A stretch of DNA of 40,620 bases from a virus: positions 1 through 40,620 of IMG/VR virus record IMGVR_UViG_3300042397_000463, one strand, 5' to 3'. Below are positions 6,474 through 36,785 of the stretch, piece by piece; within the stretch, counting starts at the first letter, position 1; the number at the start of each line of letters is the position of its first letter. The notes under the pieces are model-generated. The model was not told the DNA's origin and did no database searches. It saw nothing but the letters and a program-made list of their open reading frames with translations. A program made the position numbers and the translations under genes.

Positions 6474-6492
6474 AATCAAGCTAACCGCAGAC

Positions 6493-6508
6493 GGTACCTT
6501 ATAGATAC
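6493..6508 (+). promoter_or_regulatory. Phage promoter-like motif, site A
   Basis: GGTACCTTATAGATAC lies in the only sizeable gap (6474-6521) of this part of the operon, 14 bases before the next start codon. It matches site C at 14 of 16 positions. Confidence 0.6.
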
Positions 6509-6521
6509 ACACGGAGAACCT

Positions 6522-11360: not shown

Positions 11361-11363
11361 TAT

Positions 11364-12968
11364 ATGTCAAGATGGATTCATACCGCTTGTCCCAAGTGCG
11401 ATTCATCAGATGCCTTCTCATATAAGGAGAATGATGATTTCGGATATTGCTTTTCATGCTGTAAGTCAGCACCAACAGACCCAAATTTTAAACCAACTGT
11501 TTATCACAAAGAAAATTACGATATGCACACTATAGAGGAGATCAGAGAGTATGACACAAGAGGCTTTCAAGAAAGAGGAATCACCAAGACAGTATCAGCT
11601 CATTACGGGGTTAAAGTTTCCTATGCTGAGGATGGCACTATTAGTAGCCATTTTTACCCTTATACTAAAGACAACGGTATCGTTGCTTACAAGGAGCGTA
11701 AGCTTCCTAAAACTTTTCTTATTCACGGTGACTTCAAAGGTGTGCAACTCTTTGGTCAAAACGTTTCAACGGGTGGTAAGCGCATTATCATCACGGAAGG
11801 AGAGCTAGACGCACTAGCTGTAGCACAGGCTCAACATGATAAGTATGGTAGGTTCTACCCAGTAGTAGCCTTGCCATCAGCATCTGCTACATCAATGATC
11901 CTTGAACAACGTGAGTGGTTACGTAACTTCGATGAAGTCGTACTCATGTTTGATCAAGATGAACCCGGAAAGAAAGCTACAGATCAAGCCGCTAAGATCA
12001 TTGGATATGATAAGGTTAGGGTAGCATCACTACCTGAAAAAGATCCATGTGACGTACTAATTAAACATAGCTCTGCTACCCTGATGAACTGTATCTTTGA
12101 TGCACGTACATTCAGTCCAGCAGGTGTTGTTAAAGGTGAGGCTATTTGGGAACAATTCAAACGTAAGAAAGAAACTACCTCTCTTCCTTATCCTGAATGT
12201 TTAAAGACTCTCAACGACAAGCTACATGGTATGCGCTTAGGTGAGATTGTATTGTTCACCTCAGGTACAGGCTCAGGTAAAAGTACAGTCATTAAAGAGA
12301 TTGTACTTGAAATCCTAGCTAAGACAACTAATATGATCGGTATGGTGTCACTCGAAGAATCCATTGGTGACTCTGCTGAAAAGTTTATTGGTATGCAGTT
12401 ACGTAAGAACCTTCTGACACATCAAGTAACAGAAGAAGATATGTATGCTGCTCACCAACAAGTGTTCGGTGATGAACGCTTAGTACTGCTTGATCACCAA
12501 GGCTCTGTAGGAGATGAGTCTCTTATAGACAAGCTTGAACACCTAGCCTTGATGGGTTGTAAGTATATTATCCTTGACCACATCACTATTGCTGTGTCCG
12601 AGGGTGCTAAGGGTCGTACAGGTAATGAAGCAGTTGACTCAGTCATGAGTGATCTACTTAAGATCTGTAAGAAACATAATGTCTGGTTAGGTGTTGTGTC
12701 TCACTTGCGTAAGGGTGAAAAGCCTTTTGAAGAGGGTCACTTGCCATCTATCGATGACATCAAAGGCTCAGGCTCTATTAAACAAATTTCATTCGACATC
12801 ATTGCTTTTGCTCGCAACATGATTGCTGAGACAGAACAGATGCGTAACACAATTAAGCTTCGTGTATTGAAGTCTCGATTCACGGGTATGACAGGTGACT
12901 GCGGTAATACTAAGTATGACTCAGACACAGGTCGCTTAATGCAAACTACTTTTGTTGACTTTAAATAA
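11364..12968 (+). CDS. DNA primase-helicase, T7 gp4-like
   Basis: The 534-aa bifunctional enzyme is close to the T7 gp4 length. An N-terminal zinc ribbon has CPKC (9-12) and CFSC (29-32). The TOPRIM primase domain has TEGELDA (E145) and FDQDEPG (D197, D199). The RecA-type helicase has Walker A SGTGSGKST (300-308), SLEES with the likely catalytic Glu (331-332), and Walker B YIILDH (D405). It should unwind the fork and make primers for the phage polymerase. It lies between the nuclease genes and the RNA polymerase. Confidence 0.95.
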   Translation: MSRWIHTACPKCDSSDAFSYKENDDFGYCFSCCKSAPTDPNFKPTVYHKENYDMHTIEEIREYDTRGFQERGITKTVSAHYGVKVSYAEDGTISSHFYPYTKDNGIVAYKERKLPKTFLIHGDFKGVQLFGQNVSTGGKRIIITEGELDALAVAQAQHDKYGRFYPVVALPSASATSMILEQREWLRNFDEVVLMFDQDEPGKKATDQAAKIIGYDKVRVASLPEKDPCDVLIKHSSATLMNCIFDARTFSPAGVVKGEAIWEQFKRKKETTSLPYPECLKTLNDKLHGMRLGEIVLFTSGTGSGKSTVIKEIVLEILAKTTNMIGMVSLEESIGDSAEKFIGMQLRKNLLTHQVTEEDMYAAHQQVFGDERLVLLDHQGSVGDESLIDKLEHLALMGCKYIILDHITIAVSEGAKGRTGNEAVDSVMSDLLKICKKHNVWLGVVSHLRKGEKPFEEGHLPSIDDIKGSGSIKQISFDIIAFARNMIAETEQMRNTIKLRVLKSRFTGMTGDCGNTKYDSDTGRLMQTTFVDFK

Positions 12969-15170
12969 ATGAATCCATTAAATTATCTTACTGAACGTGT
13001 ATCGAAGGTTGTCCCCAACTCAGATAAGATCTACAATGAGGGTGCTCGCCTTCTAGCACACTATCCAACATGGGAGTACGAACTTGAAAGGTTTATTAAC
13101 GAGTCGTGGGATACTTTACTTCGCTACTGTATCAGAAATAAGAATGCAACACATTCTGCCTCTGTTAAACTCACTTTCGCATCTGACCTTATCGGAAAGC
13201 GAATTGCTAGAGCTATCGGAGCTGATGAGACAGACATCAAAACAACTCTATCTCTTGGAGACTTACTGCTCGAAACTTTCCTCCAAGACGGACTGATTGA
13301 TATCTTCAGAGAATATGCTGGATACAAAGCCCCATACATGGTACGCATTGTTAATCAAGCAGATGAAATTAAACCAACACTGATTGGTACTTCATTCGAA
13401 CCTCTGTTACCTATTGCTGGACTCTACAGTCCACTAACCAAAGAACCCTTTATTAAAGGCTGGACTAACTCTAAGTTGTTCCATGAAAACCTTAATAAAA
13501 CCTTTGTTAATTCCCTTGAGACTCTTCGTCAACAACCATGGCAACTTAACCTTCCTGTGTTAAGTGCTATGCAAGCACAAAAGCCTAAGGAAATCTTAGA
13601 GTTAGTTGATGAGGATGGTGTCATCAGGGAATACAACATTCACCATGAAAACCTAGACTTACCTAAAAACTTGTTCCATACAGACAAGACTAAATTCCTT
13701 GGTAAGAAAGACCCCAAGCTACAACGTATGATGAGTAAGTACTTCGAGTACACTCAGGTACTTAAGAAAGCTGAGATGATTGGCGACAAAACATTCTATC
13801 AGGAAGTCTCTTGTGATTACCGTGGTCGAGTGTACTACGCAGAATCATTTTTAGAGTTCCAAGGTAGTGACTTGGCTCGTAGCCTGTTCTTGTTTGCTAA
13901 TAAGAAGAAGGTTACTGAACGTGGTTTATTCTGGATCAAGGTGCATACAGCAGCTTGCTTTAATAAATCATTTATTATTGGTAACATCCCAAGCTACTTT
14001 ACCACAGACTACAAGGCTTACTTAACTGAGGAAGGTCTTGACACTATATCTGTAGATAAGATGACACTGGAAGATCGAGTTGCATGGGTAGATAACAACA
14101 TAGAGTTTATCTATCAGACTGCCCGTACTAAACATATTCATCCTGACGCTGAGAAAGCCTATAGCTTCTTAGCTTGTTGTAATGAATTGTTAGGTTACAA
14201 AAGATCTGTCATGGAAGGTAAACCCTTTATGTCTGGTCTGCCTATACCTATCGATGGTAGTAATAACGGTTGGCAACACTTAGCGGCTATGTCTAAAGAC
14301 AAACAAGCAGGTACGCTAGTGTCACTTGTTCCTACACCTATCCAGAAAGACTTTTACGTAGCAGTAGCCAAAGAACTTATCAGTATTATGCCTGAGTACT
14401 TTGAAGCTAAAGATATGCCTATGAAACATATCCGTAAGGGTATAGCTAAACGAGGCTCAATGACTCGTGCTTATAGTGCAGGTAAACTTCGTATCGCAAA
14501 GAATATGTACGATGACTGTCACGTAGAAGGTTATACTGTTAAATATAACATTACTGAAAATGAGTGTGATATACTAGCAGGTAACCTAATCAAGGCTATT
14601 AACACTGTCTGTGCAGGACCACTTAAGACAACCAAGTATTTACAGAAGATTGCAGAACATGAACTTAACTCAGGAAGAAATCAACTTTCGTGGACAACCC
14701 CATCAGGGTTCCCAGTGGTATACAAGGCTTACTTACAGCATGAACGGAAACAAAGAGGAACTATCAAAGGTATCCAAGGAAATAAAGACGGAAGGGTCAT
14801 GCACGTTATTAAGGTTGACGTACTTAACAAAGAAACTGGTGAACGTGTTCCTTGCAGACGTTCCTTTGCTTCTGGTATCAGCCCTAACGTTGTTCACTCA
14901 TATGATGCTGCTCACATGGCAAATACTATCGTCAGCTTTAACGGCTCTTTTGGAGCAGTCCATGATAGCTTTAGTACACATGCGGATGAAGTTGATTTCC
15001 TTCAAGAAGTAACTAAGATGACCTTCATTGCACAGTATGATGTGGAAAACTTCTTTAATATCATACAAGATACTCTTATGAATAATAAGGATAACTTCAC
15101 TTTTAACCAACCTGAGCTGGGTAACCTAGTACTCAGTGAGGTTATGGAATCTAAATACTTCTTCTGCTAG
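12969..15170 (+). CDS. Single-subunit RNA polymerase, T7 family
   Basis: All polymerase motifs are intact in 733 aa: DYRGR (283-287), motif A PIDGSNNGWQH (D429), motif B with K494 and AYSAG (Y502), the T-helix GISPNVVHSYDAAH, and motif C VHDSF (H665, D666). The protein is shorter than T7 RNAP (883 aa), mainly in the N-terminal and inter-motif regions. It presumably recognises phage-specific promoters, for which the GGTACCTAATA-type motif is the best candidate. The start directly follows the primase stop. A second, diverged polymerase-like protein is encoded at 19003-22563. Confidence 0.95.
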   Translation: MNPLNYLTERVSKVVPNSDKIYNEGARLLAHYPTWEYELERFINESWDTLLRYCIRNKNATHSASVKLTFASDLIGKRIARAIGADETDIKTTLSLGDLLLETFLQDGLIDIFREYAGYKAPYMVRIVNQADEIKPTLIGTSFEPLLPIAGLYSPLTKEPFIKGWTNSKLFHENLNKTFVNSLETLRQQPWQLNLPVLSAMQAQKPKEILELVDEDGVIREYNIHHENLDLPKNLFHTDKTKFLGKKDPKLQRMMSKYFEYTQVLKKAEMIGDKTFYQEVSCDYRGRVYYAESFLEFQGSDLARSLFLFANKKKVTERGLFWIKVHTAACFNKSFIIGNIPSYFTTDYKAYLTEEGLDTISVDKMTLEDRVAWVDNNIEFIYQTARTKHIHPDAEKAYSFLACCNELLGYKRSVMEGKPFMSGLPIPIDGSNNGWQHLAAMSKDKQAGTLVSLVPTPIQKDFYVAVAKELISIMPEYFEAKDMPMKHIRKGIAKRGSMTRAYSAGKLRIAKNMYDDCHVEGYTVKYNITENECDILAGNLIKAINTVCAGPLKTTKYLQKIAEHELNSGRNQLSWTTPSGFPVVYKAYLQHERKQRGTIKGIQGNKDGRVMHVIKVDVLNKETGERVPCRRSFASGISPNVVHSYDAAHMANTIVSFNGSFGAVHDSFSTHADEVDFLQEVTKMTFIAQYDVENFFNIIQDTLMNNKDNFTFNQPELGNLVLSEVMESKYFFC

Positions 15171-15172
15171 AC

Positions 15173-15188
15173 GGTACCTAATACCAGA
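15173..15188 (+). promoter_or_regulatory. Phage promoter-like motif, site B
   Basis: GGTACCTAATACCAGA lies in the 41-base gap between the RNA polymerase and ribonucleotide reductase genes, three bases after the RNAP stop. The first 11 bases are identical to site C. Overall match is 12 of 16. Confidence 0.6.
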
Positions 15189-15211
15189 CAACAATTAACA
15201 ACAAGGAACTC

Positions 15212-17089
15212 ATGAACTCTTATCAACAACTTATCGCCAAGTCCCGTTATGCCCGTTACCTACCTGAAGAAAAACGTAGGGAAAATTGGGATGAAACATC
15301 TGCCCGTTGGGTATCTTTCTTTCAAGAACAACTTAAAGATAAAGTAAATAAGGATGACTCTATCTGGGGTCTCCTAGGAAACAGCATTAATAACTTAGCA
15401 GTGCTTCCTTCTATGCGATCTATTATGACCGCTGGTGAAGCTCTTAGACGAACACACGTTGCAGCCTATAACTGCAGTTACCTTCCTGTTGATAATCAAC
15501 GTTGCTTTGATGAAGCTATGTATATCCTCTTGTGTGGTACAGGAGTAGGCTTCTCTTGTGAACAAAATTATGTTAACCAGTTACCCGTTGTTCCTACAAT
15601 GGTTGAAGCTACTGGCTACACTATTGTAGTAGCTGACTCTAAAGAAGGTTGGTGTGAAGCTTATAAAATGCTTATTGGAATGTTGTATGAGGGTATCATT
15701 CCTAAATGGGATGTGTCGCTCGTTCGTCCAGCAGGTGCGCCACTTAAGACATTCGGCGGTCGTGCCTCAGGTCCGGGTCCACTGATTGACTTGTTCCAGT
15801 ATACAGTAGATAAGTTTAAAGCTGCTGCAGGTCGTAAGCTTAAATCTATTGAAGCACACGATATCATGTGTAAGATCGGTGAAGTAGTTGTGGTGGGTGG
15901 TGTACGTAGGTCAGCCATGATTTCTCTTGGTGACTTGGGTGACTATGATCATGCCACAGCTAAAGCAGGTGCATGGTGGGAAAACCATGGTGAACGTGCA
16001 TTGGCTAACAACTCAGCAGTGTACAACAGTAAACCTTCTATCGGTGAGTTCATGAAGGAATGGTTAGACATTTACAACAGTCACTCAGGTGAACGTGGTA
16101 TCTTTAACCGTGAAGCTTCTCAAGTACAAGCCGCTAAGTGGGGTCGCAGAGATCCTAAGGTTGACTACGGTACTAACCCTTGCTCAGAGATTATCCTGAA
16201 GCCATATCAGTTCTGTAACTTGTCTACAGTAGTAGTGTCTCCTGAAGATACTGTTGAGTCACTCAAGACTAAAGTTCGCTTGGCTACTATCATGGGTACT
16301 ATGCAGTCTACACTGACTGACTTCCCTTACCTTCGTGATGTATGGCGTACTAACACCAACCAAGAACGTCTCTTGGGTGTGTCTATGACTGGTATCCTTG
16401 ACAACCCTTATCTTCGTGGTAGTACTCACTATCCACTAAGAGATCTTCTTGAAGAACTTCGTGATGTAGCTCGTGAGACTAACAAAGAGTGGGCAGCTAT
16501 CTTGGGTGTACCTGAGTCAGCCGCTATTACTTGTGTTAAGCCTGAGGGTACTGTGTCACAACTTACACAGACATCCAGCGGTATCCATGCTGGACATGCT
16601 AAGTACTACATCAGACGTATTCGTCAGGATAAGAAAGATCCATTGACTCAGTTCTTGATCTCTCAAGGTATCCCTAATGAAGACTGCGTTATGAAGCCTG
16701 ACCAGACTACTGTGTTTAGTTTCCCACAACACTCACCAGGATTTACTCGTGAAGATCTTAATGCTATCGAGCATTTAAATATCTGGTTGACATATCAGCG
16801 TTACTGGTGTGAGCATAAACCCTCAGTAACTATCTCAGTTAAAGACCACGAGTGGATGGAAGTAGGAGCATGGGTATATGAACACTTTGATGAGTGCACT
16901 GGAATTAGTTTCCTTCCTGATGATGGCGGTACTTATCGTCAGGCTCCATACGAAAACATTGACTTATCCGTTTACCATCGTCTTGTTGACACCTTACCTG
17001 CTATTGAATGGGATCTCTTTGTGGAAGATCGTGACAATGTAGAAGGTGCTCAGACACTTGCTTGTACAGCTGGAGGATGTGAGATTTGA
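15212..17089 (+). CDS. nrdJ: Ribonucleotide reductase, class II (adenosylcobalamin-dependent)
   Basis: The 625-aa protein reduces ribonucleotides to deoxyribonucleotides using a B12-generated thiyl radical. The active site NPCSEI carries the radical Cys324 and Glu326. C88 and C335 (CNLS) are positioned as the redox pair. The C-terminal CTAGGCEI (C618, C623) is the swinging arm recharged by thioredoxin. Size and single-chain form fit monomeric class II enzymes of aquatic phages. The gene directly after it encodes thioredoxin, its natural electron donor, and they overlap by four bases. Dependence on B12 implies a host that makes or imports it. AAGGA precedes the ATG. Confidence 0.93.
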   Translation: MNSYQQLIAKSRYARYLPEEKRRENWDETSARWVSFFQEQLKDKVNKDDSIWGLLGNSINNLAVLPSMRSIMTAGEALRRTHVAAYNCSYLPVDNQRCFDEAMYILLCGTGVGFSCEQNYVNQLPVVPTMVEATGYTIVVADSKEGWCEAYKMLIGMLYEGIIPKWDVSLVRPAGAPLKTFGGRASGPGPLIDLFQYTVDKFKAAAGRKLKSIEAHDIMCKIGEVVVVGGVRRSAMISLGDLGDYDHATAKAGAWWENHGERALANNSAVYNSKPSIGEFMKEWLDIYNSHSGERGIFNREASQVQAAKWGRRDPKVDYGTNPCSEIILKPYQFCNLSTVVVSPEDTVESLKTKVRLATIMGTMQSTLTDFPYLRDVWRTNTNQERLLGVSMTGILDNPYLRGSTHYPLRDLLEELRDVARETNKEWAAILGVPESAAITCVKPEGTVSQLTQTSSGIHAGHAKYYIRRIRQDKKDPLTQFLISQGIPNEDCVMKPDQTTVFSFPQHSPGFTREDLNAIEHLNIWLTYQRYWCEHKPSVTISVKDHEWMEVGAWVYEHFDECTGISFLPDDGGTYRQAPYENIDLSVYHRLVDTLPAIEWDLFVEDRDNVEGAQTLACTAGGCEI

Positions 17090-17340
17090 AGCTACTTAAA
17101 TTTTCTGCAGCATGGTGTCAACCATGTAAGCAACTAGATAAGGTTCTTAAAGAAGCCTTACCTGAATACCCTGAGATTGAACTAATTAATATGCCTATCG
17201 AGGATAATAAAGATTCAGTATCATACTACGGTATTCGTTCAGTACCTACAATGATTATTGTAGATAGTAATGATCAGGTATTACGTACATCAGTAGGATT
17301 TGATGCTAATAAGGTAAGACCTTTCTTAGCAGGTACCTAA
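17086..17340 (+). CDS. Thioredoxin/glutaredoxin-like protein
   Basis: The 84-aa product has the active site AAWCQPCKQL (WCxPC) and the conserved cis-proline region RSVPTMI. It is shorter than E. coli thioredoxin (about 108 aa), as is usual for phage versions. Translation starts at a TTG overlapping the reductase stop (TTGA), with GGAGG upstream, so the two are co-translated. It most likely reduces the class II reductase. A role as a polymerase processivity factor, as host thioredoxin has in T7, is possible but unsupported. Confidence 0.88.
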   Translation: MKLLKFSAAWCQPCKQLDKVLKEALPEYPEIELINMPIEDNKDSVSYYGIRSVPTMIIVDSNDQVLRTSVGFDANKVRPFLAGT

Positions 17341-17347
17341 TAGATAA
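17332..17347 (+). promoter_or_regulatory. Phage promoter-like motif, site C
   Basis: GGTACCTAATAGATAA spans the last codons of thioredoxin and ends exactly where the first tRNA begins. It is used here as the reference copy. It would drive the tRNAs and the genes after them. Confidence 0.6.
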
Positions 17348-17422
17348 AGCGGGGTAGCTCAGTAGAAGAGCGATGGACTCATAATCCATAGGTCAGGGGT
17401 GCGACTCCCTTCCCCGCAACCA
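17348..17422 (+). tRNA. tRNA with CAU anticodon (Met, initiator Met or Ile2)
   Basis: It folds as a cloverleaf: acceptor GCGGGG/CCCCGC plus an A-A mismatch at position 1-72, D stem GCTC/GAGC, anticodon stem ATGGA/TCCAT with loop CTCATAA, T stem AGGGG/CCCTT, and an encoded CCA. The D loop (AGTAGAA) lacks the usual GG, and the T loop (TGCGACT) has G where T55 is expected. The two changes would together remove the normal elbow contact. The unpaired first position recalls initiator tRNAs, but the three G-C pairs of initiators in the anticodon stem are absent. CAU could also be lysidine-modified Ile2. Confidence 0.8.
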
Positions 17423-17429
17423 TCGGTCC

Positions 17430-17449
17430 GACTCTACCGTTACGGAGTC
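17430..17449 (+). other. Hairpin in the spacer between the two tRNAs
   Basis: GACT...CCG-TTA-CGG-AGTC forms a 4+3 bp stem with a three-base bulge in the 41-base spacer. It could guide tRNA processing. There is no U-tract, so it is not a terminator. Confidence 0.3.
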
Positions 17450-17463
17450 ACAGACATAATGAC

Positions 17464-17537
17464 AGTGGTATAATTCAACTGGTAGAATCGAGGATGTATA
17501 AGCTTCGGAATGTGGCGTTCGAATCCCACTACCACTC
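17464..17537 (+). tRNA. Atypical tRNA, isotype uncertain
   Basis: The acceptor AGTGGTA/TACCACT (7 bp), D stem ATTC/GAAT with a normal AACTGGTA loop, and a T loop TTCGAAT are all good. The T stem GTGG-G/CCCAC pairs fully only if C17516 is bulged. The anticodon arm is irregular: either a GAGG/CTTC stem closed by A-G with loop TGTATAA (UAU anticodon, no U33), or CGAGG/CTTCG with a 9-base loop centred on GTA after a U. Tyr would normally have a long variable arm, which is absent. No CCA is encoded. It may be a functional odd tRNA or a decaying one. Confidence 0.6.
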
Positions 17538-17555
17538 TCTAATCAAGGACACAAC

Positions 17556-17888
17556 ATGGCTAAACAAAAACACCCCAGATATTATTCAAGGAAATTCCTT
17601 AATAAAAGCAAGGGTACAGCGTTAATAGAATCAAGCGTAGATATCAGCCCATACTCTATGGACGGTACTATCTGTATATCTGACTGCTATCGTAAGGTAG
17701 AGCTTGATATGCACATATATGATAAGAAATCTTTAAAAGAAAAGTATGATAAATTAGAATTACTAATTAAAGAATTAACTTTATTTAAAGACTTTATTGA
17801 TAATAATGCCGACTATTATTTTGAATTAAAGAAAAATAATAAACCAACTAGTCTAGCCGCATTATTAAGCGAGGAAGATGATGATTAA
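17556..17888 (+). CDS. Hypothetical protein, 110 aa
   Basis: It follows the tRNAs with an AAGGA ribosome binding site. The N-terminus is basic (MAKQKHPRYYSRKFLNKSK), the middle is beta-rich and a helix follows. The C-terminus is acidic (SEEDDD). No family is recognised. Confidence 0.65.
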   Translation: MAKQKHPRYYSRKFLNKSKGTALIESSVDISPYSMDGTICISDCYRKVELDMHIYDKKSLKEKYDKLELLIKELTLFKDFIDNNADYYFELKKNNKPTSLAALLSEEDDD

Positions 17889-18078
17889 TAAACACGATAT
17901 TGAGGACTTGTGTCCTGACTACTATAAAACCCCTGAAGAAATCCTATATGACGACAGAGCCTATTGGTACGATATTGAGCTACAAGGCTTAAAATTACCT
18001 GAGGTATGGGGTAAGTATATCCTAGGTGAAAACGTTAAGTCCTACGAGTTTAACCTTAGTAAAGGCTATTATGGGTAA
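17878..18078 (+). CDS. Hypothetical protein, 66 aa
   Basis: An acidic, Tyr-rich small protein that overlaps the previous gene by 11 bases. The start could be 17878 or 17881. No motif is recognised. Confidence 0.55.
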   Translation: MMINKHDIEDLCPDYYKTPEEILYDDRAYWYDIELQGLKLPEVWGKYILGENVKSYEFNLSKGYYG

Positions 18079-18280
18079 AGGTAGTAGTAGACGTAGAGAG
18101 AATGAACAGCTGGTAAGAGACAATTGGGATGCTATATTTGGTATTAAAAAGAACCCTGAGACTCTGCAGGAACATGTCTGGAATGATAAGGTAAGAGCAT
18201 ATCAGTCAGATATTGAAAAGAAATTAATTAAAGGAAATGAATATGAGCTGCCAGAAAAAGCTAAAGACACTTATCAGTGA
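18071..18280 (+). CDS. Conserved small phage protein, 69 aa
   Basis: The ATG at 18071 has AAAGG five bases upstream and gives MGKGSSRRRENEQLVRDNWD, an N-terminus shared by small phage proteins of unknown role. The longer frame from 18026 lies inside the previous gene and is less likely. Basic N-terminus, helical remainder. Confidence 0.6.
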   Translation: MGKGSSRRRENEQLVRDNWDAIFGIKKNPETLQEHVWNDKVRAYQSDIEKKLIKGNEYELPEKAKDTYQ

Positions 18281-18671
18281 TAACTTTATTGTGTATTTTA
18301 AAACACATGTTTATCACTTAAATATTACAGGTCCAAACTTTCCTCAATACCATTCTTTATTTCAAGAAGTTTATGAATATCTGCTTGAAGCGCATGACGG
18401 TTTAAACGAACAATGCCGCCAAATGGGTGGTATGTGTATGACTAATTTAAAAGAATATGCTGAAGAGTCTAACTTTACTTTAGAAAACAAAGCTAAGACA
18501 GATATTGCTATGTTGTCTGACTTGGCAGGGTCTTTAGAAGACATCTTAACTGTCTCTCAAATGCTTTATGATGAAGCAAGTAAAGAAAGTCATGGTGCTT
18601 TAGAAACATACATTGGTGACTATATGACTGGTGTATCTAAACTTAAATGGAAATTGGAGTCATGTAAATGA
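18243..18671 (+). CDS. Dps-like ferritin (DNA protection during starvation)
   Basis: The 142-aa protein matches the Dps four-helix bundle. All four ferroxidase ligands of the intersubunit type are visible: H25 (VYHLNITG), H37 (QYHSLF), D52 and E56 (AHDGLNEQ). Length is slightly below typical Dps (about 160). Dps proteins oxidise and store iron, detoxify peroxide, and some bind DNA. Here the basic N-terminal tail is short, so DNA binding is uncertain. The ATG at 18243 is favoured over 18237 because AAGGA lies seven bases before it. It is next to last in the rightward module and so may be expressed late. Confidence 0.75.
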   Translation: MSCQKKLKTLISDNFIVYFKTHVYHLNITGPNFPQYHSLFQEVYEYLLEAHDGLNEQCRQMGGMCMTNLKEYAEESNFTLENKAKTDIAMLSDLAGSLEDILTVSQMLYDEASKESHGALETYIGDYMTGVSKLKWKLESCK

Positions 18672-18946
18672 AGAGCTATAATCTACAAGCATTAAGGGGT
18701 AATCCCTATGATGATAAGGAATTTCAATCTGATATGAGTGAAGTAGGTATTAATATTCCTGATAATCTCTTATACAAAAAAGAAATTGGACCTTATGTTA
18801 TCAATGAAATCTATAAACAAAATCTAACAGGATTAACTGAAGTTAAAAACGTTAATACTGGTTTTAATTATACACAAGAAGAAGCAGCAAAAGCAGCTGA
18901 TGAATATCGCAGTGATGCGCTTAAACTATATAACAGTTTAGTTTAA
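18668..18946 (+). CDS. Hypothetical protein, 92 aa
   Basis: The last rightward gene, coupled to the Dps-like gene by an ATGA overlap and ending at the terminator. It has a mixed composition and an Ala-rich C-terminal helix (EEAAKAADEYRSDALKLY). No family is recognised. Confidence 0.65.
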   Translation: MKSYNLQALRGNPYDDKEFQSDMSEVGINIPDNLLYKKEIGPYVINEIYKQNLTGLTEVKNVNTGFNYTQEEAAKAADEYRSDALKLYNSLV

Positions 18947-18995
18947 AAAAAAAAAATAACCCCTACTAGGATAATTCCTAATAGGGGTTTTTTAT
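18945..18995. terminator. Bidirectional terminator between converging modules
   Basis: ACCCCTACTAGGA (18959-18971) pairs with TCCTAATAGGGGT (18976-18988) at 12 of 13 positions around a TAAT loop. A run of T follows (18988-18993), and a run of about 13 A precedes it. The element therefore has a U-tract on both strands and should stop both the rightward and the leftward transcripts. Confidence 0.9.
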
Positions 18996-19002: not shown

Positions 19003-22000
19003 TTAAGTAAAGAAATAAATTTCACCGTTAAGTGCTCTATTCCTAATTTTCATTAAGGCATTTTTGCGGTTGTTATTTAAATCCTTAGTCCACTTTTTAA
19101 ACTTTTCAAATACATTAAACTTTGAAGCCATAGACTTATAAAGGATATTAACTTGAGCACGAGTAAGTACTACCGTGTCAGGTCTATTCTCAGGTAATAT
19201 ATAACCAGAACGACTATCCATTAGCCTGTCTTTAAATGTTTTCTCAGGTATAGTAAGCTTATCACCTGCTTTTTCTTTTTCTAAAATGTATTTTAGATTA
19301 CGATCTAATACAGTAAACATACCTTTATAAGGTGATTTGTCGTTAATAACAATTGTATTACCTTGCTTAGAAAGTTCTTTATCTATCTCAGCCATTTGCA
19401 GGTTGTAATCTTCTTCGAATTTACCAGTCATATCCCAAGATAAAATACGAGGAACAATAATGTTATTAGCTACGTACAATGTCATAAGATAGCTGTCAGC
19501 ATCTAAGATAAAGTTATCAAATACAGGAGACATATTAAGCATTTGGAATGGATCTTTATCACCATTAATATAACGCATAGTCTCAAGCATTACCATTGAC
19601 TCTCGATATTGACCCATAACAGGACCAATACCGTTACGTGCTGCTGTTCCTGGACCTGGAGGTTCAATGTTAGCACCATCAAAGCCTTTAGTGCCTTTAT
19701 CTTTAGCCTTAGCTTCAGGATCTAAAGGCATAAAGCCTTTAATTTTACGTTTAATATTAGCATAGCGACTAGATATTTCTATTTCTTGGTCTGTATCGTA
19801 CACACCTGACTTACCAATACTAATTCTTTCGTTATGAAATCCTAATGGCGCTGGAACACGACCAAACATTTGCATAAGTTCTACAATTTGTTTGGGCAAA
19901 GCATATTGCCAGCTATCACCAGATGCATTTAAGGTTTTAAAATAAATTTCATTAAGTTCTTCAACAAGTTTTTTGTAATCATTGTTGTAATGCTTTAGCA
20001 TTTCATCTTTAAAGGATGGGTATTCATTAAGAAAAGCCATAGCTTCTTCAAAGTGATACATCATTGGCTTACCGTAGTCAGTAGTCAACAATACCTTTTT
20101 ACCAAAAGCCTTATTAAAGTTTTTGTCACCTTCAAACTTAGCAAAAGCCGCCTTCCAAGCTCTTAGCTTTTCTTGATCTGATGCACCAAAAGCAGAATCT
20201 AATCCTTCTTTTACAGCGACTTCAGTAAAGAAAGCTCTAGGGTCTTTACCACCAGTAACATCCTGCCACTGCTTGTCTGTCATGGTGTCCCATATCAAAC
20301 CAACTCGTGTGAGAATATTTTCTTTGCCAACGTCCATAGCCAAGAATGTTCTTCCAGCTGAATTCATATCAATAGCTACAGTAGTTCTAGGAGTAAAAGG
20401 TTTACCTTGTTCCTTAGAATCCATATAGGCAGCTGCATCTAGGAAAGCCTGTAACGTATAGCCATAATCATCTCGCCCTGAATTGTTCAACCAAGTAAGC
20501 ATAGCATTACGTTGGGGTTCAGTCATGTTCTGAGTGTATTCAGGTTTAATTAGACTTGCATCACCGGGTATTTTCTTTACGCCTTTGTTGTATTGGTCAT
20601 CAACTGCTTTAGCAACACTAAGTATTTCATTAACAATTTCTCTATTAGAATTAGGAACTAATGATCTTAGTTGGCGACCAATACTAGCTGCATTCATAAT
20701 AAATGCGGGAGAAACTATACTAAGCATTTCAGGAATAGTCATATTCTCTGTTTTAAAACCAGTACCTGCGTATTTACCCACATCTAAAGCTCTACCAAGA
20801 ATAGCTAGGAAAGATAATTCCCTTTCTGCTGGAGTAAGTTTAAAGTCTCTTCCTCTAACTTTACTTCCAATTTTATTCCAAAAGTCTGTTGCCTTTTCTT
20901 TGCTAATACCTTTTGTATGGTAAGTAGTATCATTAACCAACATAGGTTTTGCATTGAAAACCATTAGTGCACGGGTTAATTTGTTACGTTGTTCAGCAAA
21001 GTCTACTGCATCTTGGTATAAACGATGTGTTGAGTAGTCATCCCTGTACTTAGTAAAGTTAGGACTACCATCAGCCATAAAACCAGCTTGATGGAAGAAC
21101 TCGCTTGCTAACAAATTAAGTTTACTTTTTAAAGAACCCTTTTTATCTGAGCTATCATCAGGAAGTTTAGCATCTTCAAGATCTTCATTACTTATCTTAA
21201 AATAAGGTAACATATCTATATTACCTTCAACGGGTACTCCGTTGTTATTAATCTGAGATAGCAACATCTTAAACATATTAAGAGCGTGAAAACCTTTAAT
21301 AGAAGAAGACAACTTACCAATGCTACCAGCAATACGCTTACCCTCATCAACTTGAGTAAGCGGTTGATATCCGGGTTTCTTAATGTCTCCAGGACGAATG
21401 TTACGGCTAGCACCAACAAGTTCACCCGTATCACTTACAGGAACTTTTTGGGATCTGGCAGACAATCTACCTGTAATAGCATACTCTAGCTCTTTAGTGT
21501 CCCTATAGTAATCTAAACCCTTAGTAGTTGGTACAACTGCCATCACACCTTTAACATTAATTTCGGTTAAAAAACCTGCATCAATTTCAGCTTGAGTGTA
21601 AAAAGCACCAGACTCTACATTAGAAATCCTAGATTGAGGTAGAGTTGACTGGTCTAAAGGTCTTCCTTGTTCGTCAACTGAATTGCGAGTCTTTCTAAAC
21701 ACATTAGCTACACGACCAGTAGCTGTTTCATAAGACTCTCTGGTAAGAAGACCACCAACATATTTAACTGTAAGTGGACCTTCTTCTCCATCACCGCTTA
21801 ACAAAGAATTAATACTGGTAAGAGTGTCATTAGAATCTTCATCAAAGAAATCTGCTTCTACAATTTCAGAATCTTCTTGAGATCGAGGTTTCATTCGTTT
21901 AGCATTGCCAACAGCAAGAGGCATCAAAGTAGTCATTGCCAATGTGCCCATGTTAGCTGCTGTACGAGTCGTAACACCATAAGCATCGGCAAGTCTTGAT

Positions 22001-22563
22001 AAACCGTTTTGAACTTCTCCTGAGGGTGTTTTAATTTCCATATTAGCTAAAGACAAACCAATATCTTTAGAAGCACGTAATGGTGAAGCAGCTACGGTAG
22101 GCTTCATAACACCGTCACCAATAGCGGCATTAAGGTCATCCACTGTTTTCATACGAGTTAATTGTGCAAGAGATGTTACTCGTTGTTGCTGTGCTTCAAC
22201 TTCCTCTTGCCTTAACTGCATCATTTGATCGTAAGGCAATACATTACCTTGGCGATCCATAATAGACCTACCTGCTCCAGCACCTTCATCAGGGTATATA
22301 TCGCTGTTGTCTGCAATATATTGTTGCTCTAGATCATCATCTTGAAAAAGATTTCTTTCTCTACTATAATAATCAATATCCTCAGGAGATGCTGTTTCTT
22401 CTTCAGCACTCATACCTGTGTATGCTATTGGGGGAGGAACCTGTTGATCCTCTGATATATTTATTGAAGGTACTTCTGTTTCTGAAATACGTTCTCTTAG
22501 GAATTCTGATCCAACACCCTCTGGAACACCAGATGGGCGGGGTACGTTAACAAATTTAGACAT
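19003..22563 (-). CDS. Putative virion RNA polymerase (diverged single-subunit RNAP), 1186 aa
   Basis: The central and C-terminal part carries single-subunit RNAP signatures. Motif A is AIDMNSAG (D732, Gly five residues later, as in T7 D537/G542). Motif B has K818, K822 and DYG (Y830, G831), with the 12- and 8-residue spacing of T7 R627/K631/Y639 and N4 R666/K670/Y678. A T-helix-like GIGPVMGQYRESM lies at 978-990. Motif C is PVFDNF..DAD (D1016; His811 of T7 is Phe1015). Distances D732-Y830 (98) and Y830-D1016 (186) are close to T7 (102, 173). RGR at 570-572 may be the upstream RNA-binding motif. The first 250 residues are acidic, low-complexity sequence. It is the last gene of the virion operon after two other giant proteins, as expected for an injected polymerase like N4 gp50 but a third of its size. 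Alternatively it is an ejection protein with chance motif matches. Confidence 0.65.
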   Translation of the reverse strand: MSKFVNVPRPSGVPEGVGSEFLRERISETEVPSINISEDQQVPPPIAYTGMSAEEETASPEDIDYYSRERNLFQDDDLEQQYIADNSDIYPDEGAGAGRSIMDRQGNVLPYDQMMQLRQEEVEAQQQRVTSLAQLTRMKTVDDLNAAIGDGVMKPTVAASPLRASKDIGLSLANMEIKTPSGEVQNGLSRLADAYGVTTRTAANMGTLAMTTLMPLAVGNAKRMKPRSQEDSEIVEADFFDEDSNDTLTSINSLLSGDGEEGPLTVKYVGGLLTRESYETATGRVANVFRKTRNSVDEQGRPLDQSTLPQSRISNVESGAFYTQAEIDAGFLTEINVKGVMAVVPTTKGLDYYRDTKELEYAITGRLSARSQKVPVSDTGELVGASRNIRPGDIKKPGYQPLTQVDEGKRIAGSIGKLSSSIKGFHALNMFKMLLSQINNNGVPVEGNIDMLPYFKISNEDLEDAKLPDDSSDKKGSLKSKLNLLASEFFHQAGFMADGSPNFTKYRDDYSTHRLYQDAVDFAEQRNKLTRALMVFNAKPMLVNDTTYHTKGISKEKATDFWNKIGSKVRGRDFKLTPAERELSFLAILGRALDVGKYAGTGFKTENMTIPEMLSIVSPAFIMNAASIGRQLRSLVPNSNREIVNEILSVAKAVDDQYNKGVKKIPGDASLIKPEYTQNMTEPQRNAMLTWLNNSGRDDYGYTLQAFLDAAAYMDSKEQGKPFTPRTTVAIDMNSAGRTFLAMDVGKENILTRVGLIWDTMTDKQWQDVTGGKDPRAFFTEVAVKEGLDSAFGASDQEKLRAWKAAFAKFEGDKNFNKAFGKKVLLTTDYGKPMMYHFEEAMAFLNEYPSFKDEMLKHYNNDYKKLVEELNEIYFKTLNASGDSWQYALPKQIVELMQMFGRVPAPLGFHNERISIGKSGVYDTDQEIEISSRYANIKRKIKGFMPLDPEAKAKDKGTKGFDGANIEPPGPGTAARNGIGPVMGQYRESMVMLETMRYINGDKDPFQMLNMSPVFDNFILDADSYLMTLYVANNIIVPRILSWDMTGKFEEDYNLQMAEIDKELSKQGNTIVINDKSPYKGMFTVLDRNLKYILEKEKAGDKLTIPEKTFKDRLMDSRSGYILPENRPDTVVLTRAQVNILYKSMASKFNVFEKFKKWTKDLNNNRKNALMKIRNRALNGEIYFFT

Positions 22564-22566
22564 TGA

Positions 22567-25500
22567 TTAGTCTCCAAGTTCTTTCTGTAAATATTTCGCA
22601 AAGGCGGGAGATGTTCCAACAATAGGAAGCAGCCTTGCACCTCTCTCGATTTGCTTACCTTCAGGTGCAGATAAAGCATTATCGATTTTGTTAATAAAGG
22701 AAAGTTGAGGGGATTGTTCAGAAAGATTCTGCCAAGCTTGAGCCGCAACACCTTTATATTTACTGTTATCAGGGATTAAAGGATCCATTGTATCCCAAAT
22801 ACGCTGACCAGTTCCTAGTAAACCTGTTTGGGATACTAGACGTTGAAATTGTTTTTCATCTTTTAACCACTCTGGTGGTGATTCACCATACTTAATTAAA
22901 TCTTTAATATACAAAGCAAGCATTGACAAAGCAATCATCATAGCAATTGTAGCAGCTGCATTCTTTTGGTCTTCAGAACCTGCTTTTCCTAAGTCACCAA
23001 TAAGTCTTGGTAAAAGGTTTGCTGTGAATGTTGATGTATAACCTTGGAATTGGGTAAACAAACTAAAGTAAGGGTCACTATAAAACTTAGGTCTATTCAA
23101 TTGTGAAGGCATAACAACAGCTTCATTTACAAAATTGTAAACAGCTAATTGCATATTGTCATTAAATTTATTTTGATTTAAAGTGCTGTCATCGTTAATA
23201 GATGTCATAAAGTTTATATCAATACCTAGTCTAACTAAGTGATCTCTTGCATCATTAACCTGTTGATCTGTGTAAGATAAATCATTATTTTGAACAACAT
23301 TTAGCCAGTTATTAATTGCATCTGCTGCAATACCTAGTCTAGCATTTCTAGTAATAGTAGTAACAGAAGTAAGACCTGTTAGTTTAAAGAAACCTTCTGT
23401 CCATTTCTGATAATAGTTAGACATAATATCAACACGGTTAGCAGTGTTACCTTCTCTTAAATAACCTGCTCTAGACAAAGAAGATCTATGAGCAACCTCT
23501 TTAATTTGAACTCGATCAGTCATAGCATTACCGATATCTCTCATATAAGCAGACATTTCTTTGCCAGCAGATGTAAGTAATATTCTAAAAGCTTTAATTG
23601 ATTGTGGTCTATTTAAGTTCCTAAATATCTGTGCAAACTCTACCGTAGAACTCACTGCAGCTAAAGGTAGAGCAGTAATAGTAGATAAGAAATTAACAGT
23701 ACCTAATGCACCTTTAATATAAGGATTAGTAATAGGATGGAAATTACCTGAGCGCATACTGAGAAAATCTTTAATTTCTTTAGCTATAAAGGAAGCAGTA
23801 ACATTATCAATAGTACCTTTGTTTACGGATGCTTGTATTAAGGAAGCTAACTTAGCACCATCTTTACCAATAATATTTTTATTAACATTAATAGCAGCAG
23901 CTTTACTTGATAAAGAATAAGCATTGTTTAATATATCATTAGATAAATACTTAGCAAACCTAGCTCTGTTTCCTGGCTCGTTTAAAGCTTTAATAAGAAC
24001 ATCTTTGTCTTTTAAACTAGCAGTTACTTCAGTAAAAGGATTAATATCATCATTAAATACGTCATCAATAGTAGTATTATCTCTGTTGTTCATTAAAGAA
24101 TTAGCAATTTCTCCTGCTTCTTTTGCAGAAACTTTTAATCCTACTTCTAAATCCTTAAGAAACTCTTTATACTTTTTAGTAATAATAGTTTTGTCAATAG
24201 GCGACTGCTCTAAAAATGATTTAAAAGTTAAAGTAGAACCTGTTGCATTGTTATAACCGTTAATAAGATTAGTAATCTTACCAGCATATTCGGACAATTG
24301 CTCTTTGTATTGATTATTAACTCCGAAATTAATACCTAAACTATTAGCTAATTCATTAGCTGTTTGGTCAGGGTAAAGATTCATATTATAAGAAATACGT
24401 TCTAAACCATCAATAACTTTTGGATCATTAAACAAACTATTAATTTGAGTTTCATTTAAACCTTTAAACTTACTAAGCATTTCTTCTTTAGTACCGAAAT
24501 TACTAAATATCTTAGCACTCAAAAGAGCTTGGTGTTCATCAATAGATCTACCATTAACAGGTCTTCCATAACCTAAGAACGTAGCAAGAGAACCCATATA
24601 CTCGTCAGCATGTTGCATGTTCTTCATAATGGTACCACTGTATTTACCAAACAAAGAAACAATACCCTTATCAACCCACCAAGATCCCGTCTTAGCGGAT
24701 ATACCTTCTGTCTGTCGCTTAGAAGTTTCTAACAAAGCAAGCTCTTCAATAGTCTTATTGTTTTCAGGTTTACCAAATGTTTCTAATTGTATTTCAGCAG
24801 CAGAAGGAATGTTACCACGCTCTTTATTCATCTTCTCTCTAAATGCAGAATCACTAGTAATTTCTGTAGGTGATATTCTATTTGTTAATGTAGAAACAGT
24901 AGTGCTACCACCACTCATAACCCCACCAAGCAAGCCACCACCAACAGCCGCATTAAGCATTCTGTTCTTTAATTTATTTTGTTCTGCACTATCTGTAGGT
25001 AAAGACAATGTAACTTCTTCGCCTAAATAACCAGCTAATTCTTGTAATGATTCTGTAACTGATTCAGTTAAACCACCAACAGCAATAGACTTACCAATAG
25101 CTTTTGGTCCTAAATTTGACTTAATAGTAGCAACTCTTAATGCTTCACCTACTTCTTTAGTAGCTTCTTTTAAACTGTTTTTAATTAATTGTTCTGCTGC
25201 TTCATCACCAATGCCTTTAAGCATTAGTTCTTTCTTAACCATTTGCTGAGTAGCTTGTTTAGTTATATCTAAACCCGGCTTAAAAATAAAACCAAGGGCT
25301 AACCTATCTAAAGCTGTTTGAGTTAATCCAGAAGCAATAGCAGCAGTAGCGTTTTTGTTTTCTTCTTTTTGGTTGTTCCAAGTATTACCAATATAAATTC
25401 CAGCAGGAATAGATAAAGATAAACCATAAGTTAATGGTGCAGCTAAAGTAGAAACAATAGTTGTTAACATCTGTGGAGCAGACACTGCAGCTTGACCAAT

Positions 25501-26367
25501 AGAAAAGTCAACAACTTTACCTAAAGTGTCTAATTTCCAGTCACCATTGTCATCAAAAGCCTCTGGCTGTTTTAAATAAGGTAATTTCTCTAAGTTATCT
25601 TGTACACTTCTTACGTTAGCACTACCAATGTCTCTTAACCAATCAACTCCAGTACGATCACCAATCATTTCAAGAGTTCCAAACAAACCCTTTTTAATTT
25701 CTTTACCACCAATACTTAAACCAGTACTAAGAGTAGTGTTTGTAACACCACGTTCATCCTCATCAGGTCTAACTAAAGAAGGTCCAACGAAATAATCAAA
25801 GTCTGCTTGATTAAATTGTTTGGCTGTTGTTGTTCTTAACTTAGAAAAAACTCTTTGGTTAGGGTACATTTCACCTATAAGGTTAGAATACATCTCATCT
25901 GCAATAGTAACTTTACCTTCTAATTCTCTTTGCCTACGATCTAATTTACCATAAGCTTCACTAGCTCTTTGTGAAGGAGTACTTTCTTTATAAAGATCAG
26001 TGTAACCTTTATATAACAACTCATTAGTTAAAGCTCTACCTCCTGAGTAGAGATCCCCTAGCTCACGACCATAAATATCTTTATTTCCACTTAGCTCAGG
26101 TGTTGTAAAACCACCACCTTTAATAGTATCAGCAATTAATTCAGATTGCGTATCAGCACCTAGTTGAGCACCTTTAATTTTGCCGGGTAAAAACTTAGCG
26201 CTCTCTCTAGTATTAATACCTTGTAAACGTAACGTTGAGTCAGGAAGGGAAACAGTATCAGCATCTTTTAATTTAATGCTGTCTGTTCCCGTATCCATAA
26301 CAGAGGGTTCAGGGATAGACTTTTCGTCTATTCCCATACCTATAAGTATTTCTTTAAGTCTATCCAT
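22567..26367 (-). CDS. Giant virion/ejection protein with N-terminal SNase-like domain, 1266 aa
   Basis: Residues 31-125 match the thermonuclease (staphylococcal nuclease) pattern: DADT (D35, D37, T38), LRLQGINTRE (R47, N52, T53, E55) and DIYGREL (R101), then a G-x-L-x-x-ELLYKGY helix. These correspond to D19, D21, R35, D40, E43 and R87 of the S. aureus enzyme, with only D40 changed, to Asn. The remaining 1100 residues are long helices with glycine-zipper stretches (about 470-490) and a hydrophobic segment (IAMMIALSMLALYI) near 1140. The C-terminal LPIVGTSPAFAKYL block recalls internal core proteins of T7-like phages. It probably enters the cell with the DNA. Flanked by the RNAP-like and the lysozyme-bearing proteins. 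Confidence 0.7.
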   Translation of the reverse strand: MDRLKEILIGMGIDEKSIPEPSVMDTGTDSIKLKDADTVSLPDSTLRLQGINTRESAKFLPGKIKGAQLGADTQSELIADTIKGGGFTTPELSGNKDIYGRELGDLYSGGRALTNELLYKGYTDLYKESTPSQRASEAYGKLDRRQRELEGKVTIADEMYSNLIGEMYPNQRVFSKLRTTTAKQFNQADFDYFVGPSLVRPDEDERGVTNTTLSTGLSIGGKEIKKGLFGTLEMIGDRTGVDWLRDIGSANVRSVQDNLEKLPYLKQPEAFDDNGDWKLDTLGKVVDFSIGQAAVSAPQMLTTIVSTLAAPLTYGLSLSIPAGIYIGNTWNNQKEENKNATAAIASGLTQTALDRLALGFIFKPGLDITKQATQQMVKKELMLKGIGDEAAEQLIKNSLKEATKEVGEALRVATIKSNLGPKAIGKSIAVGGLTESVTESLQELAGYLGEEVTLSLPTDSAEQNKLKNRMLNAAVGGGLLGGVMSGGSTTVSTLTNRISPTEITSDSAFREKMNKERGNIPSAAEIQLETFGKPENNKTIEELALLETSKRQTEGISAKTGSWWVDKGIVSLFGKYSGTIMKNMQHADEYMGSLATFLGYGRPVNGRSIDEHQALLSAKIFSNFGTKEEMLSKFKGLNETQINSLFNDPKVIDGLERISYNMNLYPDQTANELANSLGINFGVNNQYKEQLSEYAGKITNLINGYNNATGSTLTFKSFLEQSPIDKTIITKKYKEFLKDLEVGLKVSAKEAGEIANSLMNNRDNTTIDDVFNDDINPFTEVTASLKDKDVLIKALNEPGNRARFAKYLSNDILNNAYSLSSKAAAINVNKNIIGKDGAKLASLIQASVNKGTIDNVTASFIAKEIKDFLSMRSGNFHPITNPYIKGALGTVNFLSTITALPLAAVSSTVEFAQIFRNLNRPQSIKAFRILLTSAGKEMSAYMRDIGNAMTDRVQIKEVAHRSSLSRAGYLREGNTANRVDIMSNYYQKWTEGFFKLTGLTSVTTITRNARLGIAADAINNWLNVVQNNDLSYTDQQVNDARDHLVRLGIDINFMTSINDDSTLNQNKFNDNMQLAVYNFVNEAVVMPSQLNRPKFYSDPYFSLFTQFQGYTSTFTANLLPRLIGDLGKAGSEDQKNAAATIAMMIALSMLALYIKDLIKYGESPPEWLKDEKQFQRLVSQTGLLGTGQRIWDTMDPLIPDNSKYKGVAAQAWQNLSEQSPQLSFINKIDNALSAPEGKQIERGARLLPIVGTSPAFAKYLQKELGD

Positions 26368-26375: not shown

Positions 26376-29300
26376 TTATTTTTTAAATGTATCCAAAGCA
26401 AACAATGCAAATGCAGTATTTCTATCTGAGTTCTTATATCTGTTTTGTATACCGTTAGTATTAGCAGCCCATACCTCTGCTAGCCTTGCTATCTCAGCAT
26501 CAGGTGTTGTGTTAGTTTTATTCTTAGAAACAAAAAGATTAGCTGAATCCCTAAGAGAAAGAATATCGTCAGCTGACATTAGCCTACCTGACTTTTTATC
26601 TAGGGTAACTAGCTTATCAGACAACTTACCACGCTCTCTAAATTCACCAGCAGCTAAATAAGGAGTAATATCTTTAGTGTTTTTAAAGGTACCAGACTCA
26701 ATATCATTTGCTAATTGTTCTGCTGCAATAGTAGTAATCTTTTCAATTTCGTTTTGAACAGCACGATCGTCTAGATTAACTTTACCCCTGAAAAAACTTT
26801 CAACTTGGCTAGCAGCTGATCCAGCAGTAACAAGCCCTTTTCTTTCTGGGTTAGCTTTACCTTTAACATTAGATGCACCGAAATAACTTTCGACAATTGG
26901 TTCAAATATATTTTTAGAAAGCTTTTCTGAAAACTCTTGAGCACGTTTTAACTTGGCTTGATTACCATATTTATTAGAATCCCATTTGTCTAAGAAAGAA
27001 CCTTGAGCCATCAAAGCATCAAAAGGAAAACTCTTATCCCCAATGCGAACCATTTGAACAGTTTGGCCTTTACTAGGACCAAATTGTTGAACTGTTTCGT
27101 ATACCCAAACAGGGTCTCCGGGCTTAAATACTTGACCATTAAGCTTAGTAGGTGTAGTAACAGTCATAAGTTCAGATTTACCATTACGAATAAACGATGT
27201 TCTTATTTGTGGTGCTTCACCCTTTTGACCGCCTTTAAACCAGTTGCGAACTTCCATAGCATCACGACCTTCTTTAACCATTGCTGATTCAAGTGCTTTG
27301 TTTTCTTCGCGAGTTATATCTTCTCTTCTTAATTCACGGTCTCTGGCAATACGTTTTTCAAGTAATTCTTCTTGTTGATTAAAACGTTTGTCTTGTTGTT
27401 CAGCCGCAAAAGCTTCAGCTTGACGTCTATCAGATGCTTGAAGTGTATTTAAACCAGCAACTCGTAAAGAACCACCAACAGATCCACCAGTTAACATACC
27501 GCCAGCAGCTAAAAGACCAAAGCGAACAAGTTCTTTATCGTTAAACAAACCTTTAGGTCCAAAAATACCTTCTAAGGCTTTAGCAAGAAATCCCTTTTTC
27601 TCTTCAGGTGTTCCCTGCATTTGTGTTGCTTGTCTAACTGCTTCACTAACAGTATCAAGTTCTTTTCTTGATTCTAAACCAAGAGTATTAAACCTATCAA
27701 CATTTTGTTTATTAGAAAGACCATTACCAACAAGTTCAGGGACTTCTGTTTGTGTTCCCTCTCCTAAAGCTATATTATAAGCTTGATCGCTACCAATAGC
27801 TTTTTCATTTTTTGAAATATCAATTGGTTTAGGCACTTCATTATCTACAGATACAGGTGCATTTGTAGTTGTAACTACTTTTTGTGCTGTTAAATTTTTA
27901 TTTAAATCAGGAGGAGCTACGTTAAAAATAGGTGCTCTAGTATCTGCTAATGTGGGTATAGGTTGGTTAGCTCTAGCCAAAACTTCTTTAGCTGCTTGAA
28001 TAACCCTTGGATTACTACTCGTAGCTAAGTCTTGTTTAGCAATTAATACTTCACGACCTGATGGTGGATTTGTATTAACAACAACCTCAGGTTTAACAAC
28101 AGCCAAAGGAGATGCTAAAGGAGATTGAGGTTCTTTAGTATCTAATGTACCAGCTTGAGCTGATGGGATAATAACATCAGTAGCCGCATCAGCAATTTTA
28201 CCAAGATCTTTAACCCTGTTAGACCACCCTTCTTGAAACTTTTTTTGTGAAGGATTATTCTTAACAATTTTGTCTACATATTTTTGTCGCTCTTCTAAGT
28301 ACTTAGCAGGGTCACCACCAGATCTTTCCAAAAATCTTTTAGCTGTACCTGAACCTTTATTAAATGCAGTATCAAAATGAATCTCTCTAAGAGCTGGATC
28401 TAATTTATCAATTTGATTTTTATCCCAATAGTCTCTCTTAGCAATCTCAATAGCTTGTTCCTTAGTAAGATTTTTAATATCTAAATCTGGATAAGCCCTT
28501 TGGCTAATACCATATTTTGTTGCACCGCCTTTATCACCCTTAACTTTGTGAAAAGCTTTATCTTCACTAGGATATTCTCTTTGAAATACTTTTTCAATAA
28601 TTGTATTAAAGTCAGAAGGTTGACTTGTTGGTTGAGCTAAAGGAGCTACAACAGGCGGTTTAGTAGGATCTTGACCTGCAATGTAATTAAGGAATCTATC
28701 AAGGTAAGATACCTTTTCTGAACCGTCTTGATAGCCAACAGCAGACTGCACTTGCTGAGGTACTACACCGTATGTACCATTAGCATAGTTAGCCTGAGCA
28801 GAAGAACCACGTTTAAAGTCGGGTACACTCATAGTACCATTCATAAATGAAGATCCGGGTACGTCTGGATGACGATAAGCTAACGATGGTACACTACTAG
28901 TACCGTCTGCATTATACATAGGAACATCTGAGTTACGTACGTCTACTGCACCGTCACGAAGCCTATTAGCTTTACGACCTTCTTCTACCATACGCTTAAT
29001 AGCTTTTTTGTTTTTAGGGTCTTGCGCTGCAGCACGAGGAATAACAGCCTCTCCAGGAGTAAGCATAGCAGGAACTGTGTCAGTACCTTGTGCCTTAAAT
29101 ATAGGGGATTGAGGCAAGCTACGTTGACCTTGTTTGAACATACCAGTACCCGCCATAGGATTCTGAGTTGGAATACCTAGCTTTTGTTTATTCATTCTAG
29201 GAGCTGGGATACCCATATCCTTAAGTTTAGCATTATTAACTTGTTCTTTATGACCTAAACCTTGATTAGCTTTTGCGGCTGCCTCTTGGAGTTTGATCTG

Positions 29301-36783: not shown

Positions 36784-36785
36784 GA

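Follow-up and report, generated by a model that had tools for sequence, protein, structure and literature searches.

Virion-packaged single-subunit RNA polymerases (ssRNAPs) are usually regarded as a hallmark of the Schitoviridae, at a length of about 3500 amino acids (aa). Phage N4 combines an injected virion RNA polymerase (vRNAP) with an intracellular T7-like RNA polymerase (RNAP), RNAPII (PMC4496689); gp50, gp51 and gp52 are the N4 proteins described as ejected, and the N4 late genes use the host RNAP (PMC12633501). Two RNAPs were also described for schitovirus R22Y, in a schitovirus comparison (PMC11705849). A pair of T7-like RNAPs, gp014 and gp033, is known from Lactococcus phage KSY1 (PMC11476376). 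Described vRNAPs are 2842–3820 aa long among the N4-like references (PMC10654107); the R22Y protein has 2083 aa, and that of StenR_269, assumed to be a vRNAP from its size, absence of cysteine and helix content, has 2270 aa (PMC10747016). One survey removed vRNAP candidates under 2500 aa (PMC10654107), and compact vRNAPs would therefore have been filtered out. Here, the minus-strand gene at 19003–22563 of a 40,620-base IMG/VR virus record (IMGVR_UViG_3300042397_000463; this whole stretch is referred to as the window) was examined. Its 1186-aa product, P0001, is proposed to be a compact virion-type ssRNAP in a phage that also encodes an intracellular T7-type RNAP (P0004). An earlier note, made from the letters alone, knew of no described phage that pairs an injected polymerase with an intracellular one of the T7 family, but the N4, R22Y and KSY1 precedents show that such a combination is not new; its view that the size is unusual for a vRNAP agrees with the published lengths.

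The P0001 reading frame was found to be real, running from ATG to stop on the minus strand from 22563 down to 19003, and the residues and distances listed in the earlier note were located where it had placed them. They comprise D732 with Gly at +5 (DMNSAG) in motif A (codon 20368–20370; model strand 729–733), K818, K822 (codon 20098–20100; model O-helix 814–831) and Y830-G831 (Y830 codon 20074–20076) in motif B with spacings of 12 and 8, and D1016 in motif C (codon 19516–19518; beta hairpin 1011–1014/1017–1020), all on the minus strand, with A–B and B–C distances of 98 and 186. The stretch GIGPVMGQYRES was also present, at about residues 978–989. Y830 is the equivalent of T7 Y639 and of N4 Y678, the latter being invariant in the N4-type vRNAP comparison.

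As a single query, P0001 retrieved no relative from Pfam, PHROGs or PDB sequences, nor from annotated phages by tblastn; single-protein hmmscan gave no match to phrog_2206, and the sole matches of the lone query were two environmental contigs, 90% identical. Syntenic genomes were located via the T7-type RNAP, and the last late gene was then taken from them and from the cultured Roseobacter podophage CRP-7. The 49 positional homologues form three clades joined at BLAST E < 1e-10, with 14–16% identity between clades and aligned homologues of P0001 down to ~14%; full-length members are about 1130–1370 aa long. A T7-type RNAP was present in 11 of the 12 large contigs found through the P0001 family, and a scan of 84,980 cellular genomes detected no relative of the family.

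In 34 aligned homologues R514, R531, D732, R776, Y830, K832, G972, Q985, N1000, D1016, N1033 and N1034 had no exception, and position 822 was K or R in all 34. Among 63 further distinct homologues, some on contigs that overlap the first set, D732, K822, Y830 and D1016 were each found in 62 of 62, the remaining fragment being gapped, so that none of about 96 scorable sequences loses D732, K/R822, Y830 or D1016. The earlier note had named homologues without these residues as a ground for rejecting its reading, and the family passed that check. K818, also listed in the note, varies among homologues, which have K, S, D, A, N, T or G there, and members of the CRP-7-like clade carry Asn in place of the motif A +5 Gly seen in P0001. 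The motif C residues are HD in two clades and FD in that of P0001. The DX2GR block retains the Arg alone as an invariant residue (R514, 34/34) and reads DYxxxR in the P0001 clade; the N4 vRNAP likewise deviates, with TX2GR (PMC4496689). Textbook ssRNAP motifs are seen in clade 3, with DDGNQNGIFLQ for A, KxPLMQNxYGK for B and VHDSxIxT for C.

When the 34-sequence alignment was compared with 21 T7-type RNAPs using hhalign, it matched with E 6.5e-7 over 423 columns (P0001 residues 476–1058; 19390–21138, minus strand), and register was kept through motifs A, B and C as well as through the DX2GR-like and pre-C blocks. Comparison with eight N4-type vRNAP domains gave E 5.1e-5 over 772 columns (P0001 residues 270–1149). 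These E-values apply to single comparisons. The known relationship between T7-type RNAPs and N4 vRNAP, used as a positive control, scored 2.4e-9, whereas controls against families of the same phage scored 0.12 (DNA polymerase), 0.36 (primase), 0.73 (ribonucleotide reductase, RNR) and 0.24 (the neighbouring ejection protein), and reversed and column-shuffled profiles 0.4–0.97. Searches with one clade alone or against a single N4 sequence were insignificant, indicating that the breadth of clades is required. Against a narrow family of P0004 only, the match was weak (E 0.03), although the motifs came into register when the single P0004 sequence was the partner.

AlphaFold2 models were obtained for P0001 (mean pLDDT 73.8, pTM 0.75) and for the clade 3 member L050 (mean pLDDT 84.6, pTM 0.85). 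In Foldseek searches of the PDB, the best 50 matches listed for each model were ssRNAPs, led by yeast mitochondrial RNAP (mtRNAP; E 1.2e-13 for P0001 and 5.4e-15 for L050) and including T7 RNAP and human mtRNAP; N4 mini-vRNAP (2po4) matched the P0001 model with E 3.2e-9. TM-scores were moderate (0.3–0.55), as expected where a single predicted state of a flexible multi-domain enzyme is compared. The modelled right-hand fold is related to that of T7 RNAP and mtRNAP, and, by profile comparison, P0001 is a distant relative of both the polymerase domain of N4 vRNAP and the T7-type RNAPs. Conserved motifs, controlled profile comparison and two predicted structures thus bear out the claim of a second ssRNAP in this phage, and P0001 is almost certainly a highly divergent member of that superfamily.

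That P0001 is instead a DNA polymerase of family A, or a TV-Pol/primase-like enzyme, is highly improbable. The palm is common to Pol A and ssRNAPs, and Pfam DNA_pol_A is a weak match for 6 of the 34 aligned members (best E 0.0019). However, the phage's own DNA polymerase family scored 0.12 with hhalign, ssRNAPs made up the best structural matches listed for both models, and the residue at motif A +5 was Gly or Asn, never the steric-gate Glu, in the 34 homologues, in which D1016 is followed by S, A or N and not by E. As a +5 Glu and an HDE motif are both absent, the signature is that of an RNA polymerase, and a DNA polymerase identity was rejected on these two motif features and the Foldseek results. 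That P0001 is an ordinary ejection protein in which the motifs match by chance would fit the failure of the single-protein searches of Pfam, PHROGs and PDB sequences, but is scarcely credible and was ruled out by the conserved catalytic residues and the predicted folds.

The genetic context of P0001 resembles that of N4 gp50 (phrog_2206; mini-vRNAP structure 2PO4). The minus-strand late block closes with three giant genes, 26376–29411, 22567–26367 and then 19003–22563, so that P0001, as the earlier note had stated, is the final gene, downstream of the other two, and like gp50 it is convergent with the early and middle genes. The upstream pair encode P0003 (1011 aa; 26376–29411, minus strand), an ejection-type protein with a GH108 lysozyme-like domain (PF05838, E 1.3e-15), and P0002 (1266 aa; 22567–26367, minus strand), a virion/ejection-type protein matching the virion structural protein family phrog_6958 (E 1.8e-29). 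P0001, P0002 and P0003 contain no cysteine, and the 49 positional homologues contain 11 cysteines in 58,451 residues, whereas every full-length T7-type RNAP used for comparison has 5–14. N4 gp50, gp51 and gp52 are likewise devoid of cysteine (0 in 4294 residues), while most other N4 virion proteins checked contain it. Like P0001, gp50 has the ssRNAP fold with motifs A, B (12/8) and C and adjoins two cysteine-free ejection proteins, and N4 also shares with the window phage a second T7-family RNAP. Placement of P0001 in the virion/ejection module, claimed in the earlier note, is therefore supported circumstantially, by position, gene order and the lack of cysteine common to the N4 ejection proteins.

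The differences from N4 are substantial. At 1186 aa against 3500 aa, P0001 corresponds to about the polymerase domain alone and is without the ~1000-aa N-terminal and ~1400-aa C-terminal parts of gp50, to which it is similar at the profile level only. Its A–B/B–C spacing of 98/186 is T7-like, whereas that of N4 is 119/273; no N4 hairpin promoters were detected for the window, and the capsid protein and terminase families differ (CRP-7 versus N4). The T7-type RNAPs (PF00940), including P0004, share the superfamily, the fold and a similar motif spacing with P0001, which differs from them in lying in the late/ejection module, in lacking cysteine, in not being recognised by PF00940 and in being ~300 aa longer than T7 RNAP.

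P0004 (733 aa; 12969–15170, plus strand) is a genuine T7-type RNAP, as had been noted (PF00940, E 1.9e-55; phrog_414, 4e-99). Five occurrences of a 16-base motif, AGTCGGTACCTAATAG, were counted across the window, against 0.95 expected from shuffles at the same cut-off, and all five sites face downstream genes and recur at like places in relatives. On the plus strand they lie before the middle genes (6489–6504, AGACGGTACCTTATAG), before the RNR gene (15169–15184), and before a tRNA-Met and gene 17556 (17328–17343). Of the two on the minus strand, one (36772–36787; equivalent in L124–L126) precedes the late structural gene 35230–36753 and the operon ending with P0001, and the other (194–209; conserved in L114, L117, L119, L122 and L123) lies in a divergent region towards leftward genes. 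The 3' half of the motif is similar to T7/SP6-class promoters, and the motif is therefore probably the promoter of P0004. The early gene cluster (256–6473, plus strand) has no same-strand site ahead of it, indicating that another enzyme is needed for the early genes.

Taken with the gene context, it is probable that P0001 is a compact virion-packaged ssRNAP that is injected and transcribes the early genes, the T7-type RNAP taking over afterwards. The protein would be made late, as the product of the final gene of the structural operon, would be packaged with the two giant cysteine-free ejection proteins and would be injected with the DNA. It would then transcribe 256–6473, its proposed target, and onward into the P0004 gene, and P0004 would serve the AGTCGGTACCTAATAG-type promoters of the middle and late genes. 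The computed part of this scheme consists of the ssRNAP homology, the conservation of the catalytic residues, the predicted fold, the place of the gene, the lack of cysteine and the promoter-like sites ahead of middle and late, but not early, genes; packaging, injection, enzymatic activity and early-promoter specificity are what we infer. If the late genes are truly P0004-dependent, the programme differs from that of N4, and if P0001 acts as proposed, it would let the phage start gene reading without the host polymerase.

Several observations weigh against this scheme. The residue four before K822, the equivalent of T7 R627, is not conserved. Hairpin promoters of the N4 type, with a 3-nt loop, were not enriched in the early intergenic regions of the window and ten relatives, and the one candidate hairpin, at 754, has no conserved counterpart in relatives; early transcription may be started by the host sigma-70 RNAP, although sigma-70-like sites were rarer than in shuffled sequence (40 versus 58.8, sd 7.5). 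The absence of cysteine extends to other virion proteins, namely the product of 31970–35227 and the N4 major capsid protein (MCP), and as a sign of a virion/ejection role it is suggestive, not specific.

Two further explanations accept the ssRNAP ancestry. An active enzyme that is not injected, and acts in the cell late in infection in late-late transcription or replication priming, would suit a gene placed last in the late operon, since expression timing alone is no proof of packaging. This is unlikely, as P0001 adjoins ejection-type proteins both in the window and in CRP-7, all of them cysteine-free like the three ejection proteins of N4, whereas these phages have 7–14 cysteines in their intracellular RNAP; the gene order matches that of N4, with the packaged vRNAP encoded at the equivalent place, and the late genes are already served by a T7-type promoter-like site. 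Still less likely is a virion or ejection protein of ssRNAP descent that kept the fold and lost polymerisation. The very fast divergence between clades, the variable residue 818 and the change of the motif A +5 Gly to Asn in one clade would be in keeping with such a loss, but the four residues that are retained without exception are what retained catalysis predicts. Injection of P0001 as an active polymerase is accordingly the reading that we prefer.

The syntenic homologue in CRP-7, gp33 (QBQ72826), is annotated as a hypothetical protein, and the passages on CRP-7 in its source paper do not mention it (PMC6918029). It has the motif B, motif C and pre-C blocks, belongs to another clade, is about 15% identical to P0001 and has Asn at motif A +5. 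The layout is an RNAP with convergent gp33, gp34 and gp35, the last three without cysteine. Capsid, portal and terminase markers were read in CRP-7, as these genes fall outside the window. The CRP-7 portal belongs to phrog_1216, as in N4, a distant connection between the two virion modules, whereas the MCP (SU10_MCP/phrog_1328 versus phrog_1357 in N4) and the large terminase subunit, TerL (phrog_2 versus phrog_38), are of different families; CRP-7 is therefore, by these sequence markers, not a fit for the Schitoviridae.

Among the open-licence papers searched, none describes a compact vRNAP from beyond the Schitoviridae. What is new is the compactness and the non-Schitoviridae lineage, including a cultured phage, and possibly transcription free of the host RNAP throughout. 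Tentatively, a widespread lineage of aquatic podophages outside the Schitoviridae may transcribe its whole genome with two ssRNAPs and without the host RNAP. The early genes would fall to a compact injected vRNAP whose early-promoter specificity is new and does not involve hairpins, and the middle and late genes to a T7-type RNAP. In this roughly 60-kilobase, water-borne phage family, a polymerase-domain-sized enzyme can plausibly serve as an injected vRNAP, offering a small single protein in which to study injection and early promoter recognition, and CRP-7 allows direct tests of packaging, rifampicin resistance and early promoters.

Absence of cysteine is suggested as a simple marker of ejected polymerases. 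The putative vRNAPs of StenR_269 (2270 aa) and R22Y (2083 aa) are large virion-module proteins about twice as long as P0001, and that of StenR_269 has no cysteine. KSY1 gp033 (820 aa; L198, 15987–18449) also has none, whereas gp014 has 10, making gp033 a further lead and, by sequence, a candidate virion RNAP. It was not significant as a homologue of the P0001 family (hhalign E 0.03). KSY1 has a phi29-like virion, and the KSY1 passages of PMC11476376 do not put gp033 forward as a virion protein.

The window is probably an incomplete genome, as the largest relatives recovered through the T7-type RNAP are 58–64 kb. Its early and middle genes lie on the plus strand from 256 to 18946, convergent with the late block, and encode a Pol A DNA polymerase, a primase-helicase, the T7-type RNAP and an RNR. 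A terminator hairpin with a 14-bp stem (18958–18989) separates the two convergent operons. The RNR is one intact gene placed after the T7-type RNAP gene. In CRP-7 (L004), the adenosylcobalamin-dependent RNR (26553–29171) is annotated as two fragments separated by another gene, within the late region, and is possibly interrupted by an intron or insertion.

P0002 has an N-terminal SNase/endonuclease-like region (residues 45–143) that matched weakly, under the cut-off (E 0.0018), and that is also its best match to CRP-7 gp34; P0002 is a possible injected nuclease. The GH108 lysozyme-like domain of P0003 would plausibly allow local cell-wall penetration at ejection. The cysteine-free protein encoded at 31970–35227 (minus strand; 1085 aa) has many degenerate repeats (NAVTxxKIAAxAI...) and no Pfam match, and is likely a tail fibre. 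The tRNA-Met(CAT) was called by ARAGORN at 17348–17422 (plus strand), and a further tRNA-like stretch without an ARAGORN call lies near 17470–17540.

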